Of a DNA stretch of 64,000 bases, positions 9,759-57,218 are shown in pieces. Every line of letters begins with the position of its first letter. The first letter of the stretch is position 1. The notes beneath the pieces were generated by a model. That model worked only from the letters and a program-made list of their open reading frames with translations, had not been told where the DNA came from and made no database searches. A program made the position numbers and the translations under genes. Source of the stretch: Emticicia sp. 21SJ11W-3 (GTDB taxonomy: Bacteria; Bacteroidota; Bacteroidia; Cytophagales; Spirosomataceae); NCBI RefSeq assembly GCF_024138715.1, contig NZ_CP092074.1, forward strand, positions 2,914,001 through 2,978,000, in the 5' to 3' direction.

Positions 9759-10661
9759 ATGAAAACTTCACGCATACAAAACCTGTTCAGAATTCTGTTG
9801 GGTGCATTGATGACCCTGGCAGGTATTGGCCATCTTACTTTTCAAAGGCAGGAGTTTCTGGCACAGGTGCCCCGCTGGTTGCCCACTAACCCCGCATTTA
9901 TGGACTTCGTGGTGCTTTCTTCCGGTTTGGTTGAAATAGCCCTGGGGCTTTCTATGATATTTCTGGTTAAGCACCGTGCCAAAGTGGGTATCGCACTGGC
10001 CATTTTTTACATCCTTATTTTTCCGGGTAATATATCTCAATACACCAACGGAATTGATGCCTTTGGCCTTGATACCGACCAGAAACGGTTAATCCGCTTA
10101 TTTTTTCAGCCGGTTTTGGTACTTTGGGCCTTGTGGTCAACAGGCGGTTTAAAACTTTTGTTCAGCAAAAAAGCAGACAGAGCAGCTAAGAGTTTTTATG
10201 ATTTTGAAGCCAAAGCGCTTTCGGGCAAGCCCGTTTCTATGAGCCAGTTTAAGGGCAAAACCGTAGTGGTGGTGAATACAGCCAGCAAATGCGGCCTTAC
10301 CCCGCAATACGAAGGCCTTGAAAAACTATACCAGGCCAATAAAGACAAGGGGCTGGTAGTGCTGGGTTTTCCGTGTAACCAGTTTGCCAATCAGGAGGCT
10401 GGCAGCTCAAAAGATATTGAAGAGTTTTGCCAGTTAAACTACGGTGTGAGCTTTCCGATGTTCGAAAAAATTGATGTAAACGGCCCGAACGCCCACCCGA
10501 TATTTGATTACCTGAAAGCCGAGCAAGGTGGTTTGCTGGTTGATGACATCAAATGGAACTTTACCAAATTTGTGGTTGACAAAAACGGTAAGGCTGTAAA
10601 AAGATATGCGCCCACCACCAAGCCTGAAGACATGGAAGCCTACATACAGCAAATGTTATGA
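9759..10661 (+). CDS. DoxX-like membrane domain fused to glutathione peroxidase
   Basis: This is a 300-residue two-domain protein. Residues 1-135 hold about four hydrophobic segments and the DoxX-like pattern ([33 protein letters not shown]). Residues 145-300 are a complete glutathione/thioredoxin peroxidase: peroxidatic Cys178 in [16 protein letters not shown], Gln208 in [10 protein letters not shown], and Trp266/Asn267 in IKWNFTKF. The enzyme should reduce hydro- or lipid peroxides at the inner membrane; side of the membrane not determined. The next gene, an OhrR-type organic peroxide sensor, overlaps by ATGA, so the two form an organic-peroxide response operon. No frameshift separates the domains, so the fusion appears genuine. 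Confidence 0.88.
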
Positions 10662-52746: not shown

Positions 52747-53679
52747 ATGGCAGGTGGTATCTGCCTTTCAGAATCTATCAGAATGGTCTCTTATATTTAT
52801 AAAGGTTGTGGTATCAACATAAGCTCTGAACTGCCATTGCCTGAACTGGTACCGGGCGATGCCACCCCGGCAGACCTCAGCATCAGAATAGGCCCGGTAC
52901 CAGACCAGCCAACAGCCGAGGTAACAGACATTGGCCCCGGCTATATGGCAAGTGCCCATGAGTACATTTTCAGGTTACCGAATGTGGCAGGCTATTATGC
53001 AAGAGATGGTAAAGAAATATGGATTGACCCGGCTAAAAATGCCGACGCTGAAAGCATCAGACATTTTTTACTGAATCAGGTTTTGCCACAGATACTGTTT
53101 CAGAGAAATCTGATACCATTGAAAGCATCAGGTATTATCTATAACAACCAGGTGGTTTTGTTTGTAGGGCGCAGCGGAGCAGGCAAGTCTACCCTTCTGG
53201 CATCTCTAAAGCAAAGAGGTTATCAAGTATTTACTGATGATATGTGCGTTATGCGCCACAATGCCAAAGGAGAAATAGAAATACTGGCAGGTTATGCTAC
53301 TATAAAATTATGGCAAGATGCCTACAAAATACTTCAATTGGGCAATCCGGATGAAAGCATGAGAATACGGCCTCAATTGCCCAAATACAATACGTTTATT
53401 CATGATGAGTTCCTGACTTACCCGTATCAGGCAGCAACAACCATTTTTTTATTAGAGGCTACCATCCAAAAAAGCGCCTATACAGCAGGTGTATCCTATG
53501 CCAGCTTGTTTAAAGCACACACAGATAGCCTGCATGGTAAATCTTTCAATAAAAGGCAACTGGTGTTTAATGTGCTTAGCAATTTTCTTAAAAACAAAAC
53601 CGCGTACCGTATCAGGCGCTCGGTACACCAGGATTCGATTGATGAAATGGTAAAGTTTATTGAAACCAAAATCTGCTAA
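52747..53679 (+). CDS. HPr-kinase-like RiPP-associated kinase
   Basis: This 310-residue protein has a P-loop GRSGAGKS at 141-148, followed by FTDDMCVMRHN, the Asp-Asp characteristic of HPr kinase/phosphorylase-like proteins. A start at 52783 (MVSYIYKG) is equally possible. Such short HprK-like proteins, lacking the HPr-specific C-terminal motif, occur in lasso peptide clusters. In the paeninodin type they phosphorylate the C-terminal Ser of the precursor. Both precursors here end in Ser, which fits. The sulfotransferase gene starts 3 bp after its stop, so the two are co-transcribed. Activity on the precursor is inferred. Confidence 0.82.
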   Translation: MAGGICLSESIRMVSYIYKGCGINISSELPLPELVPGDATPADLSIRIGPVPDQPTAEVTDIGPGYMASAHEYIFRLPNVAGYYARDGKEIWIDPAKNADAESIRHFLLNQVLPQILFQRNLIPLKASGIIYNNQVVLFVGRSGAGKSTLLASLKQRGYQVFTDDMCVMRHNAKGEIEILAGYATIKLWQDAYKILQLGNPDESMRIRPQLPKYNTFIHDEFLTYPYQAATTIFLLEATIQKSAYTAGVSYASLFKAHTDSLHGKSFNKRQLVFNVLSNFLKNKTAYRIRRSVHQDSIDEMVKFIETKIC

Positions 53680-53682
53680 CCT

Positions 53683-54534
53683 ATGCAAGACACACTTCGT
53701 AAAATTGTATGGCTGGCCTCATATCCCAAAAGTGGCAATACCTGGTTCAGATTGTTTTTGTCGGCACTTGCCAATAAAGGCAATTTAGATATTAACCGTC
53801 TTCGTTTCCAGATGATATATTCGTCGAGAGATATATTTGAGAGCGTAAGCGGAATTGACTCGCGGTATCTTTATGACGAAGAAGCCAAATTACTGCAGCC
53901 GGAGGTTTTTAGAAAAATTGCTGCTGATTCAACAGAAAACCTGTATATAAAAATTCATGATGCTTTTGTGCAGGCAAACGGCACTACACCCATAGTACCA
54001 GAAGATGCAAGCCTTTGTGCCATTTATTTTATCAGAAATCCGCTTGATATTGTTGCTTCTCTGGCCAATCATTTAAATAAACCTATTCATTATGCTTTAA
54101 CTCTGCTTTGCAATAAAGCAGGTTTTTTTGTGCCGCAACATGGTAATCTGAACAATCGTAATCAGTTCAGACAGTATTTATCAGACTGGAGTTCGCATGT
54201 GCAGAGCTGGACCAATGGCCCGAATTTTCCTGTATATGTAGTCAGGTATGAAGATATGCTCGAAAACCCCTTTCAGGTATTTAAGCAATTACTGGTTTAT
54301 ACAGGCGTAACTGAATACAGCGATGATGCCATCAGGGCTGCCGTTGAAGCTACTGCTTTTGATAAACTGAAAAAGCAGGAAAATGAAAAAGGTTTCAACG
54401 AGAAATTCAGCGTTGAAACCCCTAGTTTTTTTAGAAGCGGCCTGCAAGGTAACTGGGTTAATGAGCTAAGTGCCCAGGAAGTGGAAACCTTAATACAAAA
54501 CCACAGTGAAGTAATGACCCGCTTTGGCTATTAG
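53683..54534 (+). CDS. sulfotransferase-domain protein of the RiPP cluster
   Basis: This 283-residue PAPS-dependent sulfotransferase fold has the 5'-phosphosulfate loop YPKSGNTWFRLF (14-25) and the 3'-phosphate site around IYFIRNPLDIVASLANHL (about 115-132), followed by VRYEDMLENPFQVFKQLL. The C-terminal FRSGLQGNWVNELS is the usual end. It is cytoplasmic. It follows the kinase gene with a 3-bp gap and ends 9 bp from the convergent precursor gene at 54544-54687. Its last 45 codons are duplicated, as a remnant, at 54856-54993. The substrate could be the peptide (Ser/Thr) or a small molecule; this is not known. Confidence 0.88.
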   Translation: MQDTLRKIVWLASYPKSGNTWFRLFLSALANKGNLDINRLRFQMIYSSRDIFESVSGIDSRYLYDEEAKLLQPEVFRKIAADSTENLYIKIHDAFVQANGTTPIVPEDASLCAIYFIRNPLDIVASLANHLNKPIHYALTLLCNKAGFFVPQHGNLNNRNQFRQYLSDWSSHVQSWTNGPNFPVYVVRYEDMLENPFQVFKQLLVYTGVTEYSDDAIRAAVEATAFDKLKKQENEKGFNEKFSVETPSFFRSGLQGNWVNELSAQEVETLIQNHSEVMTRFGY

Positions 54535-54543
54535 TTTATCCGG

Positions 54544-54687
54544 TCATGAACCGGTTGAAACTCCGCCTCCATCATTGCCTGTATTAGATGACCCTTCTAT
54601 TATGTCCGCCGATAAAAGTTCTATTCTCGGTGTTTCCCAGGTTTTTTTAACAGTCAATTCTGCTTTTACTACATTTGAATCTTCCAT
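54544..54687 (-). CDS. RiPP precursor peptide 1 (lasso-like)
   Basis: This is a 47-residue ORF not long enough for routine calling. It starts at ATG 54687 (MEDSNVVKAELTVKK) and has a leader with KKTWETPRIELLS, in which WxxP stands where YxxP recognition motifs of lasso leaders lie. If the core begins at the Gly after ADIIE it reads GSSNTGNDGGGVSTGS: Gly1, Asp8 for an 8-residue macrolactam and a C-terminal Ser16. The paralogue at 54997-55140 has the same length and matching positions. Absence of bulky residues makes a stable threaded lasso doubtful. Support comes from paralogy plus the adjacent cyclase, kinase and sulfotransferase genes. Confidence 0.8.
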   Translation of the reverse strand: MEDSNVVKAELTVKKTWETPRIELLSADIIEGSSNTGNDGGGVSTGS

Positions 54688-54855
54688 AATACAATTATTA
54701 AAAATTTATAGATAAATATTTTTTACTTTTTCCGGGTTAATCGCTGGGTCACTCAAATAAAAATATAATCAACTGTAAATACCTGCTAATCAGTTAATTA
54801 TAAATGTATTATGCAATAACCAAAGCAGTTTTCGAAAAACCGGGGAAAACAGAAG

Positions 54856-54993
54856 AAATTCAGCGTTGAAACCCCTGATTTTTTTAGAAGCGGCCTGCAA
54901 GGTAACTGGCTTAATGAGCTAAGTACTGAACAAGTAGATGCTATTATCAATTACCAACAGAAGACCATTAAAAGGTTTGGTTACCTGATATAA
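54856..54993 (+). pseudogene. remnant of a second sulfotransferase (C-terminal 45 codons)
   Basis: The frame encodes KFSVETPDFFRSGLQGNW followed by LNELSTEQVDAI, nearly identical to the end of the intact sulfotransferase (KFSVETPSFFRSGLQGNW). It ends in its own TAA 3 bp from the convergent precursor 2 stop codon. There is no start codon or upstream domain; the DNA upstream quickly becomes unrelated. It shows that a sulfotransferase-plus-precursor unit was duplicated and one enzyme copy was lost. Confidence 0.8.
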
Positions 54994-54996
54994 TTA

Positions 54997-55140
54997 TCAG
55001 GAAGCGGTATCAGTACCCGCGCCGTCAGTACCTGGTTGACCGCGTCCTTTTATTACATTCTCAGATAAAACAACTATCCTTGGTGTTTCCCAGTTTTTTT
55101 TAACTGGCAATTCTGAATTTACTTCTTTTTTAACTTCCAT
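54997..55140 (-). CDS. RiPP precursor peptide 2 (lasso-like)
   Basis: This 47-residue ORF starts at ATG 55140 (MEVKKEVNSELPVKK). Leader KKNWETPRIVVLS aligns with KKTWETPRIELLS of precursor 1. The putative core GRGQPGTDGAGTDTAS again has Gly1, Asp8 and terminal Ser16. It lies 200 bp downstream of the cyclase gene on the same strand. A -7-like box (TAATTTTG on the - strand, 55308-55315) occurs in the gap, but no matching -33 element was found. The conserved leader, equal length and divergent core are typical of paralogous RiPP precursors. Confidence 0.82.
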   Translation of the reverse strand: MEVKKEVNSELPVKKNWETPRIVVLSENVIKGRGQPGTDGAGTDTAS

Positions 55141-55340
55141 AATAGATATAAAAAAATTTGTTAATAATAGATATGAATAATTTTATTTACTAATTGAAAA
55201 AAAAACGGCAGAAAATTAAAATTTAAGATGGTAATGATAGCCAAGCCTGAAAATCTGATAAAAAATGGCTTAATCTGGCATTAATGAATCAGAAAAATCC
55301 TGTAAAACAAAATTAGAAATTCTATTTTAGAAAACTAAAC

Positions 55341-57218
55341 TTATTTATAAAAATAACCTTTCGCCTCAAGCCAGTGTAGGTATGCCACCAGTTCAACTGC
55401 CCATGCAGCAATACGGCAGTCAGTATTGTTTCGTTTGCCTTCAAGAATAGCCCCGTACAACGTCTTAAAACGATCTACATGAAGTGCCTGCCTGCTGCGC
55501 TCATAGCTGGCATCTTGTAGAACAGTATCTATATATGTATGCGATTGAATGAACTTTTCGGTGAAATCAAGAACAAATGGCTTCTTGTCTTTTCTCCACT
55601 GAATTTCCTGTGGCACAAAACCGTCCATAGCCCTGCGCATTAAAGACCGCTGCCAGTTATTTACCAGAAACTGCTCTGGCGGAATATCCATAAAAAACTC
55701 CATCAGGTTTTTATCAAGCAACGGAACCGTGCTTTCTATACCGTAAGAGGCACTTAGTTTTTTTTGCGTACTAAAAAGCATCCCACCCAAGGTACCAGTA
55801 TTAATAATGGCGGCCAGCCTTTTTTTAACTGACGCTGTTGCGCCGAAGGCTACTTTTCCGGCTGCCAGAGGTGCCAGTTCTTTACTTAGCAAAGCCTGCC
55901 TCTCTAGCCGAAGGTAAGGAAGAATGGGTTCGTACAGTTTTCTGGCAAAAGAGTTATCCAGTATGCATGTCCTGAAAGCCTGAAGAAATGATATTTTGTT
56001 ATCGGCGGCTATAAAGGCTAAAGATTTAAATGCCGCACGTAATTGACCCGCTTTAAGCTGGTCATATATCAGGCCATCACCTTTGTAAGACATGGCGAAG
56101 TCTCCGCCAAAACCATTAAAAAACAAACCTATTCCTTTTTGGCTTGCGGTTTCAAACAGGCGTTTATCTGTATAAATAAAAGGATAGGCCAACACTTCGA
56201 GGCGTTCAAATGTATCGACCAGATTAGTGAAAGGCCCCGAACCGTCTGAAAAATCAATAAACTCCTGCTGAATATTAGGATACTTTTTACCCATTAGTTC
56301 CATATAATAGCGTTCGTCTTTTTGGGTTCCTGTGTAATCGGGGCTTAATACGTTAGAAATAGTATATAATGGCTTATTCTTTTTTTGCAGCTCTGTGGCC
56401 AGAATACCAGCCAGAAATGAGGAGTCTAGCCCGCCGCTTAACGAAATCCCCACGGGCTTGTCGGTATCCAGCCTTTTGTTAACGGCATTGATAATGAGTT
56501 CTCTCATGCAGGCTGCCCAGTCATTATCGTTAGTAAAGGCATACCTGCCCTGCTTTTTAAGCTGCCAGTAATTGTAAAGCCCAATAGAATGTGGCTCATT
56601 ACACTGCCAGGTAAGACGGGTAGCCGCAGGCAGTTGTTTGATGTCGGCATCGTAAGTACCGCCATCAAAATTAACCATAAACTTATTTACGGTATTGTTC
56701 CTGTCAAATCTTTTCGGGGTCTGGTTTGCGGCTGTTATACCTTTTATCTCGCTGGCAAACACAAACGCCTGCCCGTTGTAATAGTAATAAAAAGACCTGA
56801 AACCCATGTGGTCGGTGGCTGCAAAGATGGTTCTGGTTTCTTTGTTCCAGATTACAAAGGCAAACTCACCATCCAGGTAATCGGTACAGTTGCTGCCATA
56901 TTTACGGTATAGCTTCAGTATCAGGCAGGCGTCGGCTATTTCATGGTTTTTATGGGGCAGGCCCAGCAGGCTTATGATGTTGCTCTGGTTGTCAAGGCGG
57001 CTGTCGCAGGTAATTACATATTCATCTTCCTGATACGGCAATAGCTCGTTATGCTGCCTCACAGACGTAATAAGCTGGTATGTGGCTAAAAACGCCCGGG
57101 TATCATGATATGTACCTTTACCGTCTTTGGCCCTGTGTGCCATGGCTTGTTGCATAGCTGCAAAGGCTGCATCAGATTCTGGTGGAGACGTAAAGATGAT
57201 TCCAAAAATGGCGCTCAT
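55341..57218 (-). CDS. asparagine-synthetase-like RiPP (lasso) cyclase
   Basis: This 625-residue protein has the two-domain plan of class B asparagine synthetase. The N-terminal residue after Met is Ser (MSAIFGIIF) instead of the catalytic Cys2, so the glutaminase half cannot release ammonia. The ATP-pyrophosphatase PP-loop SGGLDSS (261-267) is intact, and FFNGFGGDFAMSYKGD is the conserved GGDE-like block in modified form. Loss of glutaminase with retained adenylation is the pattern of lasso macrolactam synthetases, which activate the core Asp/Glu. It is transcribed toward the two precursor genes. A true AsnB is unlikely for these reasons, but the product is not proven. Confidence 0.85.
   Translation of the reverse strand: MSAIFGIIFTSPPESDAAFAAMQQAMAHRAKDGKGTYHDTRAFLATYQLITSVRQHNELLPYQEDEYVITCDSRLDNQSNIISLLGLPHKNHEIADACLILKLYRKYGSNCTDYLDGEFAFVIWNKETRTIFAATDHMGFRSFYYYYNGQAFVFASEIKGITAANQTPKRFDRNNTVNKFMVNFDGGTYDADIKQLPAATRLTWQCNEPHSIGLYNYWQLKKQGRYAFTNDNDWAACMRELIINAVNKRLDTDKPVGISLSGGLDSSFLAGILATELQKKNKPLYTISNVLSPDYTGTQKDERYYMELMGKKYPNIQQEFIDFSDGSGPFTNLVDTFERLEVLAYPFIYTDKRLFETASQKGIGLFFNGFGGDFAMSYKGDGLIYDQLKAGQLRAAFKSLAFIAADNKISFLQAFRTCILDNSFARKLYEPILPYLRLERQALLSKELAPLAAGKVAFGATASVKKRLAAIINTGTLGGMLFSTQKKLSASYGIESTVPLLDKNLMEFFMDIPPEQFLVNNWQRSLMRRAMDGFVPQEIQWRKDKKPFVLDFTEKFIQSHTYIDTVLQDASYERSRQALHVDRFKTLYGAILEGKRNNTDCRIAAWAVELVAYLHWLEAKGYFYK

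Follow-up and report, generated by a model that had tools for sequence, protein, structure and literature searches.

We analysed a 64,000-nucleotide stretch of the genome of Emticicia sp. 21SJ11W-3 (contig NZ_CP092074.1, positions 2,914,001 to 2,978,000), hereafter called the window, which carries a compact set of genes resembling a lasso peptide locus. A kinase gene (K) and a sulfotransferase gene (S) lie on the + strand, and opposite them on the − strand stand, in this order, a cyclase gene (C) and two precursor genes, A1 and A2 (Table 1). All five reading frames are uninterrupted and retain their conserved motifs. An earlier note, made by a model from this sequence without database searches, had described the same layout, and most of its coordinates were confirmed. 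The open reading frame (ORF) of K (52747-53679(+)) and S (53683-54534(+)) are indeed separated by 3 bp, and the − strand encodes two precursors of 47 residues and a 625-residue AsnB-like protein without Cys at position 2. All of the genes listed in that note are present. It missed the remnant of a second sulfotransferase gene at about 54859-54993(+), and it placed the kinase start at 52747, whereas an alignment of 19 kinases points to the second Met, at 52783, as the probable start. Because the sulfotransferase 3′ remnant lies between the two precursor genes, it is probably the leftover of a duplicated S-A unit, one S copy of which was then lost.

The window was scanned with hidden Markov models (HMMs), of which those of K, S, C and B1 were built from proteins of this genome and that of B2 from proteins of this genome plus 14 family proteins. 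Among ORFs of at least 30 aa, at E ≤ 1, K, S and C were each matched once. No match was found anywhere in the 64-kb window for B1, the RiPP recognition element (RRE), where RiPP stands for ribosomally synthesized and post-translationally modified peptide, or for B2, the leader peptidase. This extends to the full window an absence that the earlier note had reported for the surroundings of the locus. The 205 nt between C and A1 gave no RNA structure signal on folding (z −0.05), and promoter and terminator patterns at the locus occurred at chance level only. The G+C content was 44.3% in the window vs 33.3% in L049, a stretch from Emticicia aquatica.

Table 1. Genes of the window locus (window positions) and lasso-like loci of the whole genome (genome positions).
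Feature	Position	Strand	Remarks
K, HprK/PEPCK-fold kinase, likely acting on lasso precursors	52783..53679	+	ORF opens at 52747; homologue starts align to 52783
S, PAPS-type sulfotransferase	53683..54534	+	PF00685, conserved motifs
Precursor A2, predicted core GSSNTGNDGGGVSTGS	54544..54687	−	Gly1, Asp8, C-terminal Ser
3′ remnant of second sulfotransferase gene	54859..54993 (about)	+	match at ~54748-54987 with stops; three-frame translation; alignment of both units
Precursor A1, predicted core GRGQPGTDGAGTDTAS	54997..55140	−	Gly1, Asp8, C-terminal Ser
C, lasso-type isopeptide cyclase, AsnB family, 625 aa	55341..57218	−	no Cys2
Locus I	918992-923607		K-S-B1-B2 overlapping operon, plus C and A
Locus II	window		K-S / A2, A1, C; no B1/B2
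Locus III	~3.609-3.618 Mb		C, A, sulfotransferase-like gene, JmjC gene, K, B1, decayed B2, transposase-like gene
Locus IV	~5.018-5.022 Mb		C, K, B1, A; no B2
Locus V	~3.323-3.327 Mb		C and four precursors; no K, S or B seen
Locus VI	~0.700-0.706 Mb		two precursors, S, S remnant, second sulfotransferase, glycosyltransferase, APS kinase; no C, K or B
Locus VII	~3.201-3.210 Mb		weaker AsnB-like cyclase (131 bits), one precursor; five-ORF leader-motif array 6 kb further
Locus VIII	~3.939-3.940 Mb		K and one leader-motif ORF without terminal Ser

Precursors and predicted cores

A1 comprises the leader MEVKKEVNSELPVKKNWETPRIVVLSENVIK followed by the core GRGQPGTDGAGTDTAS, and A2 the leader MEDSNVVKAELTVKKTWETPRIELLSADIIE followed by the core GSSNTGNDGGGVSTGS; the cleavage sites were predicted by Gly-to-Asp spacing and Ile(−2). 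With a hyphen after the eighth residue, the two cores read GRGQPGTD-GAGTDTAS and GSSNTGND-GGGVSTGS. Both would thus begin with Gly1, carry Asp8 and end in Ser, and both leaders have Ile at −2. Given Gly1 and Asp8 in both cores, no other ring chemistry needs to be assumed, and the locus looks like a lasso peptide locus rather than one of new ring chemistry. The lasso assignment of the earlier note is upheld.

The two precursors share 17/31 leader and 7/16 core residues, and at the nucleotide level they differ at 21/93 leader and 23/48 core positions. A W..P motif in the leader was invariant among 10 aligned precursors of the genome. When ORFs of 30-90 aa near lasso genes were counted in 35 stretches, 32 of the 38 with the leader motif ended in Ser, vs 125 of 1448 other small ORFs; the last residue was not used in the motif search, and the motif itself was drawn from precursors already seen. 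The six leader-motif ORFs without terminal Ser were the locus VIII peptide and five chance-looking ORFs. Four Ser-ending precursors occur at locus V, where no kinase was seen, which suggests that a kinase may act there from another locus. Of the paeninodin-type features, an HprK-like kinase and a C-terminal Ser are both present at the window locus; Thr(−2) is absent, as both precursors carry Ile(−2), given the predicted cleavage before Gly1.

Cyclase, kinase and sulfotransferase

The best NCBIfam match of C was the lasso cyclase model NF033535 (349 bits), ahead of asparagine synthase (214.8 bits). Residue 2 is Ser, as it is in 90% or more of the 12 cyclases aligned, namely window C and 11 of the 14 cyclases found in kinase loci of relatives. 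The predicted structure of C (pLDDT 82.8) has an AsnB-family fold with TsnB9 as its best match, a fold type that fits lasso cyclases and amidotransferases alike; no entry titled as a lasso cyclase was among the 50 matches listed. A contig scan with the single window cyclase as query returned zero relatives, and at E ≤ 1e-60 the same query matched in 3 of 200 family genomes, its own included. NF033535 itself matched in 96 of the 200 family genomes at E ≤ 1e-50, and also in 4 of 14 control genomes. We did not accept all such matches as lasso cyclases, as 13 of 15 cyclase-centred stretches (all except L081 and L082) contained no K, S, B1 or B2.

Window K is an HprK/PEPCK-fold kinase, likely one that acts on lasso precursors. 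The Walker A GKS and a DD pair were invariant across the 19 aligned kinases (window K and kinases from 18 of 22 loci in relatives). K scored 18.4 bits against Pfam Hpr_kinase_C (PF07475) and 31.4 bits against TIGR04352, reaching neither curated cut-off (33.3 and 200, respectively). PEPCK structures were the best matches of the predicted K structure (pLDDT 87.5), and HPr kinases ranked lower.

S passed the curated cut-off of PF00685 (72.9 bits; cut-off 22). PKSGNTW, KxHDA and RNPLDxxxS, which we take to be the motifs that bind 3′-phosphoadenosine 5′-phosphosulfate (PAPS), were invariant in 10 aligned enzymes, window S and nine K-linked homologues. Its best Protein Data Bank sequence match was Teg14, followed by phenol sulfotransferases and Teg12, with StaL lower; the Teg and StaL enzymes sulfate glycopeptides. 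The genome also encodes adenosine 5′-phosphosulfate (APS) kinase (one match only, at locus VI), so the cell can probably produce the sulfate donor. The position of S next to the precursors and K suggests that it acts on the window peptide. No conserved sulfation site was recognised by eye among the S-linked cores, which have in common only the C-terminal Ser and scattered Ser/Thr residues.

One intact leader peptidase in the genome

The genome consists of one contig of 5,177,490 bases and is 99.94% complete. The genome-wide search for RRE/leader peptidase pairs that the earlier note had proposed found one intact pair: a B2 with adjacent B1 at 918992-919710, about 2.05 Mb from the window, within the K-S-B1-B2/C/A cluster of locus I. 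Searching the whole genome with PF13471 at E ≤ 1 gave five places: an intact B2, another with a stop inside it and three below the cut-off. A 17-row B2 alignment, applied to the whole genome at E ≤ 5, matched nothing beyond the intact B2 (158 bits) and three fragments of the locus III copy, which lies broken close to a transposase-like gene. The locus I B2 retains the Cys and His that are invariant across this alignment. Weak transglutaminase matches in L003 and L004 were rejected as B2, since the ORFs look by eye like ordinary, longer transglutaminase-like proteins; at a weak match in L005, no ORF resembled B2 by eye. Across the 200 family genomes, B2 was matched at E ≤ 1e-4 in 99; two matches occurred in 14, including this genome through its broken copy, and never more than two. 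A PqqD-like ORF is present at 1.194 Mb, and no lasso locus was tied to it.

The window locus is one of about eight lasso-like loci in this genome, not a lone cluster (Table 1). A search of the genome with ten precursors gave 18 places, of which 11 had E < 1e-12 and the other 7 had E 0.004-0.2. The 11 strong places are the ten query precursors and one near-identical copy, and the 7 weak ones lie in loci VII and VIII. Part of the total of 18 therefore depends on weak matches with support from their surroundings, and certainty is lowest for loci VII and VIII. KKTW..P is common to A2 and the precursor of locus I, and so is Ile(−2) if the ring of the latter is Ala1-Glu8.

Kinase-sulfotransferase pairs and unlinked genes in relatives

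Using a four-kinase alignment, we reached 22 named Bacteroidota kinase loci and annotated them with the HMMs. S directly followed K in nine of these (L028-L033, L036, L039 and L048), so the pairing to which the earlier note had drawn attention is recurrent. B2 was found in 20 of the 22 loci, B1 in 18 and C in 14, and all five genes (K, S, B1, B2 and C) occurred together in L028, L029, L031, L032 and L048; some of the contigs are short, so little weight attaches to genes missing from them. On a tree of 28 kinases, the label "K with S" required 3 changes, vs a mean of 9.0 after shuffling (0 of 500 shuffles as low). The label covers 11 rows, among them loci I and II of this genome, and near-copies add to the clustering. 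Three of the paired loci (L030, L036 and L039), from metagenome-assembled genomes (MAGs), consist of B1-B2-K-S with no cyclase in the same stretch; the best cyclase of these genomes is on another contig, next to a precursor.

The nearest relative of the window locus is L028, from the Sphingobacteriia MAG SCN18_14_9_16_R3_B_37_82. As in the window, K-S faces A and C in the same order, with the precursor likewise between S and C, and C and S are each 47% identical to their window counterparts. The earlier note had asked whether relatives would lack a conserved small ORF; L028 carries a matching one, with the core GSIFAGNDGNGNNTGS. Unlike the window, L028 has B2-B1 about 3 kb beyond C: its full order is K-S, A, C, a methyltransferase gene, collar-like genes (by eye), B2, B1, an ABC-type transporter gene (by eye) and an NTP_transf_5 gene.

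Lasso genes are split in other genomes as well. In Chitinophaga oryziterrae (G206) and Chitinophaga sp. YR573 (G207), the best cyclase is separated from the K-B2 locus, in G207 by about 309 kb on the same contig; in both, the precursor stays with K and B2. In three MAGs (G202, G208 and G211), the best cyclase is also away from the K-B2 locus and the precursor adjoins the cyclase, although MAG contigs limit what can be concluded. Two single-contig genomes, G190 and G154, have K-B1-C together, and each B2 found in them lies at a distance of over 1 Mb; around the B2s at positions 7.94 Mb (G190) and 7.81 Mb (G154), 14-15 kb of sequence contained neither K nor B1. The single-contig family members other than this genome gave 12 cyclase matches of at least 250 bits: 7 had a B2 within 10 kb, 3 were distant from every B2 and 2 came from genomes without a B2 match. 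This count was read from tables, with matches below 250 bits dropped and at most five candidates per genome scored.

Proposed pathway and alternative explanations

The earlier note had left open an incomplete pathway, enzymes elsewhere or a different ring chemistry. As this near-complete, single-contig genome holds one intact B2, enzymes elsewhere are favoured, and a different ring chemistry is not needed. We consider it reasonably probable that the window holds a satellite lasso locus and that the B1/B2 pair of locus I cleaves its precursors in trans. Locus IV, with K, B1, C and A but no B2, counts in favour of such cleavage, as do the similarly unlinked genes of G190 and G154. HPr-kinase homologues phosphorylate the C-terminal Ser of linear precursors (PMC9266682, PMC8498205, as far as these texts were available), and in the Bradymonas sediminis bsf system an Ile(−2) leader is processed by B1/B2, B1 helps the kinase as well as B2, and phosphorylation occurs at Ser3 (available text of PMC10368454). 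From the precursor phosphorylation in these systems we take the same order for the window locus: K would most likely phosphorylate the C-terminal Ser before leader cleavage. S could sulfate a Ser/Thr hydroxyl, or the group added at the C-terminal Ser, on the linear or the phosphorylated peptide. The locus I B1/B2 would bind the W..P leader and cut after Ile(−2)-Lys/Glu(−1), and local C would join Gly1 to Asp8 to yield a 16-residue lasso. The [M+H]+ calculated for the A1 lasso is 1429.630, rising to 1509.597 with HPO3, 1509.587 with SO3 and 1589.553 with both; the corresponding values for A2 are 1335.541, 1415.507, 1415.498 and 1495.464, so the phosphorylated and sulfated forms would be 9.5 mDa apart.

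Several points weigh against this pathway. C falls below the curated cut-off of NF033535 (349 vs 525 bits), although this cut-off was passed by no cyclase of the genome and no match in the 200 family genomes. B2 shares a stretch with the kinase in 20 of the 22 kinase loci, which makes its absence from the window unusual, and window K has the longest end branch of the 28 kinases and an uncertain position in the tree. G190 and G154 scored low (K 122 and 131 bits, B1 46 and 42) and are distant parallels only. In two genomes, G026 and G048, cyclase matches above 250 bits occur without a B2 match, so either NF033535 also detects enzymes other than lasso cyclases or B2 can be dispensed with in some cases. 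In Bacillota, RREs tell related leaders apart (PMC13381572), and the locus I B1 may thus not accept the window leaders. Processing in trans is, so far, something that we infer, as are both modifications and their sites, threading and the function of the product.

The alternative that deserves most attention is a decaying cluster, whose B1-B2 segment was lost or never present and which makes no product. The sulfotransferase remnant within the locus, the fragmented B2 of locus III near a transposase-like gene, the long end branch of K and the presence of B2-B1 in L028 where the window has none would all fit decay. However, K, S, C, A1 and A2 are uninterrupted with their motifs kept, and the precursors retain W..P, Gly1, Asp8 and the C-terminal Ser while their cores differ at 9/16 positions, which suggests diversification under use. 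We therefore regard decay as rather unlikely. We consider it very unlikely that an unrelated protease, local or housekeeping, removes the leader or that the core is freed without B2. G026 and G048 would be compatible with this, but the 17-row alignment found no further B2-like gene in the genome except the broken one, and the W..P motif, the expected RRE target, is kept. We give scarcely any credence to a different ring chemistry or to a linear phospho- or sulfopeptide like the linear polyphosphorylated peptides of Bacilli. HprK-like kinases and RREs do serve that linear family too (PMC13381572), and one of the two leader-motif ORFs of L049 has no Asp/Glu at positions 7-9 after Gly, in a stretch without a cyclase; both window cores, however, carry Gly1 and Asp8 and adjoin a lasso-type cyclase.

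Beyond cleavage in trans at the window locus, we tentatively suggest a hub-and-satellite arrangement, which may or may not apply to the genome as a whole. A single leader peptidase would process up to 18 precursors from about eight loci, kinases, sulfotransferases and cyclases would be shared across loci, and cores would diversify in protease-free satellites, with some products bearing phosphate and sulfate.

Comparison with known systems

Like the window locus, bsf has an HprK-like kinase, a lasso cyclase, a Gly1-Asp8 core and Ile(−2). It differs in having B1, B2 and a transporter in the cluster, in phosphorylation at Ser3, in a C-terminal Asp and in the leader motif, YxxPxL rather than WxxPxI, and its description nowhere uses the word sulfotransferase (PMC10368454). 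The paeninodin/pseudomycoidin type shares the HPr-kinase homologue and the C-terminal Ser of the core, but its clusters include B2 and come from Firmicutes and Proteobacteria (PMC8498205 and PMC9266682, in the parts available), and its leaders carry Thr(−2) (per PMC10368454).

Kinase and sulfotransferase genes in lasso clusters are already published. An HPr kinase together with a sulfotransferase was noted in some anaerobe lasso clusters in 2014 (PMC4289311), and a putative sulfotransferase gene in some Firmicutes lasso clusters (PMC8498205). A distantly encoded lasso tailoring gene, pad, is also known (PMC9266682). In the available text, one review contains no word beginning with "sulf" (PMC9266682), and a 2026 review has three such words, none on lasso sulfation, and no word beginning with "bacteroid" (PMC13352647). 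Likewise, no word that starts with "lasso" appears in the available text of a survey on gene clusters from Bacteroidetes (PMC9248904). A dispersed one-protease system did not turn up in our literature search. We recognised no sulfated lasso peptide and no shared leader peptidase in this search, which covered titles and the starts of abstracts and few subscription journals and is weak evidence of novelty; no lasso peptide with both phosphate and sulfate was found in the literature searched. In a rumen survey, software called many lasso clusters incomplete, most of which were completed by manual inspection (PMC7533575, seen in part), which calls for caution with any claim of absence.

RiPP classes with maturation enzymes acting in trans exist, and lasso biosynthesis would join them if the proposed pathway is correct. 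If distant B1/B2 pairs serve satellites, mining that expects adjacent A, B and C genes would miss or misjudge Bacteroidota lasso pathways. The recurrent K-S pair would point to sulfation, which is not reported as demonstrated for lasso peptides in the literature searched, as far as its texts were available.

Other features of the lasso-like loci

At locus III, the sulfotransferase-like gene matched PF13469 below the cut-off, and a JmjC/cupin-type gene, possibly encoding a hydroxylase, lies between it and K (L007:5300-6319(−)). Locus V contains two nearly identical tandem precursor genes (L022:9682-9834 and 10037-10189), likely a recent duplication. Locus VI (L105:8488-13753) combines a lasso-type sulfotransferase and a remnant with a UDP-glycosyltransferase and the only APS kinase match of the genome.

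The five leader-motif ORFs of the locus VII array (L124:13018-14338(+)) all end in Ser, and two have an Ala1-Asp8 ring pattern. The LDP motif of this array recurs in locus VIII and in L049 of Emticicia aquatica. In the same stretch (L124:14994-17511(−)) are two tandem 350-aa ORFs, transposase-like by eye, whose first 110 residues are identical. Tandem phage-tail-collar-like genes adjoin the lasso genes both in locus I (L006:12641-15163(−)) and in L028 (14885-16653(−)); two of those in L006 were confirmed by Pfam Collar, and the other collar-like calls were made by eye.

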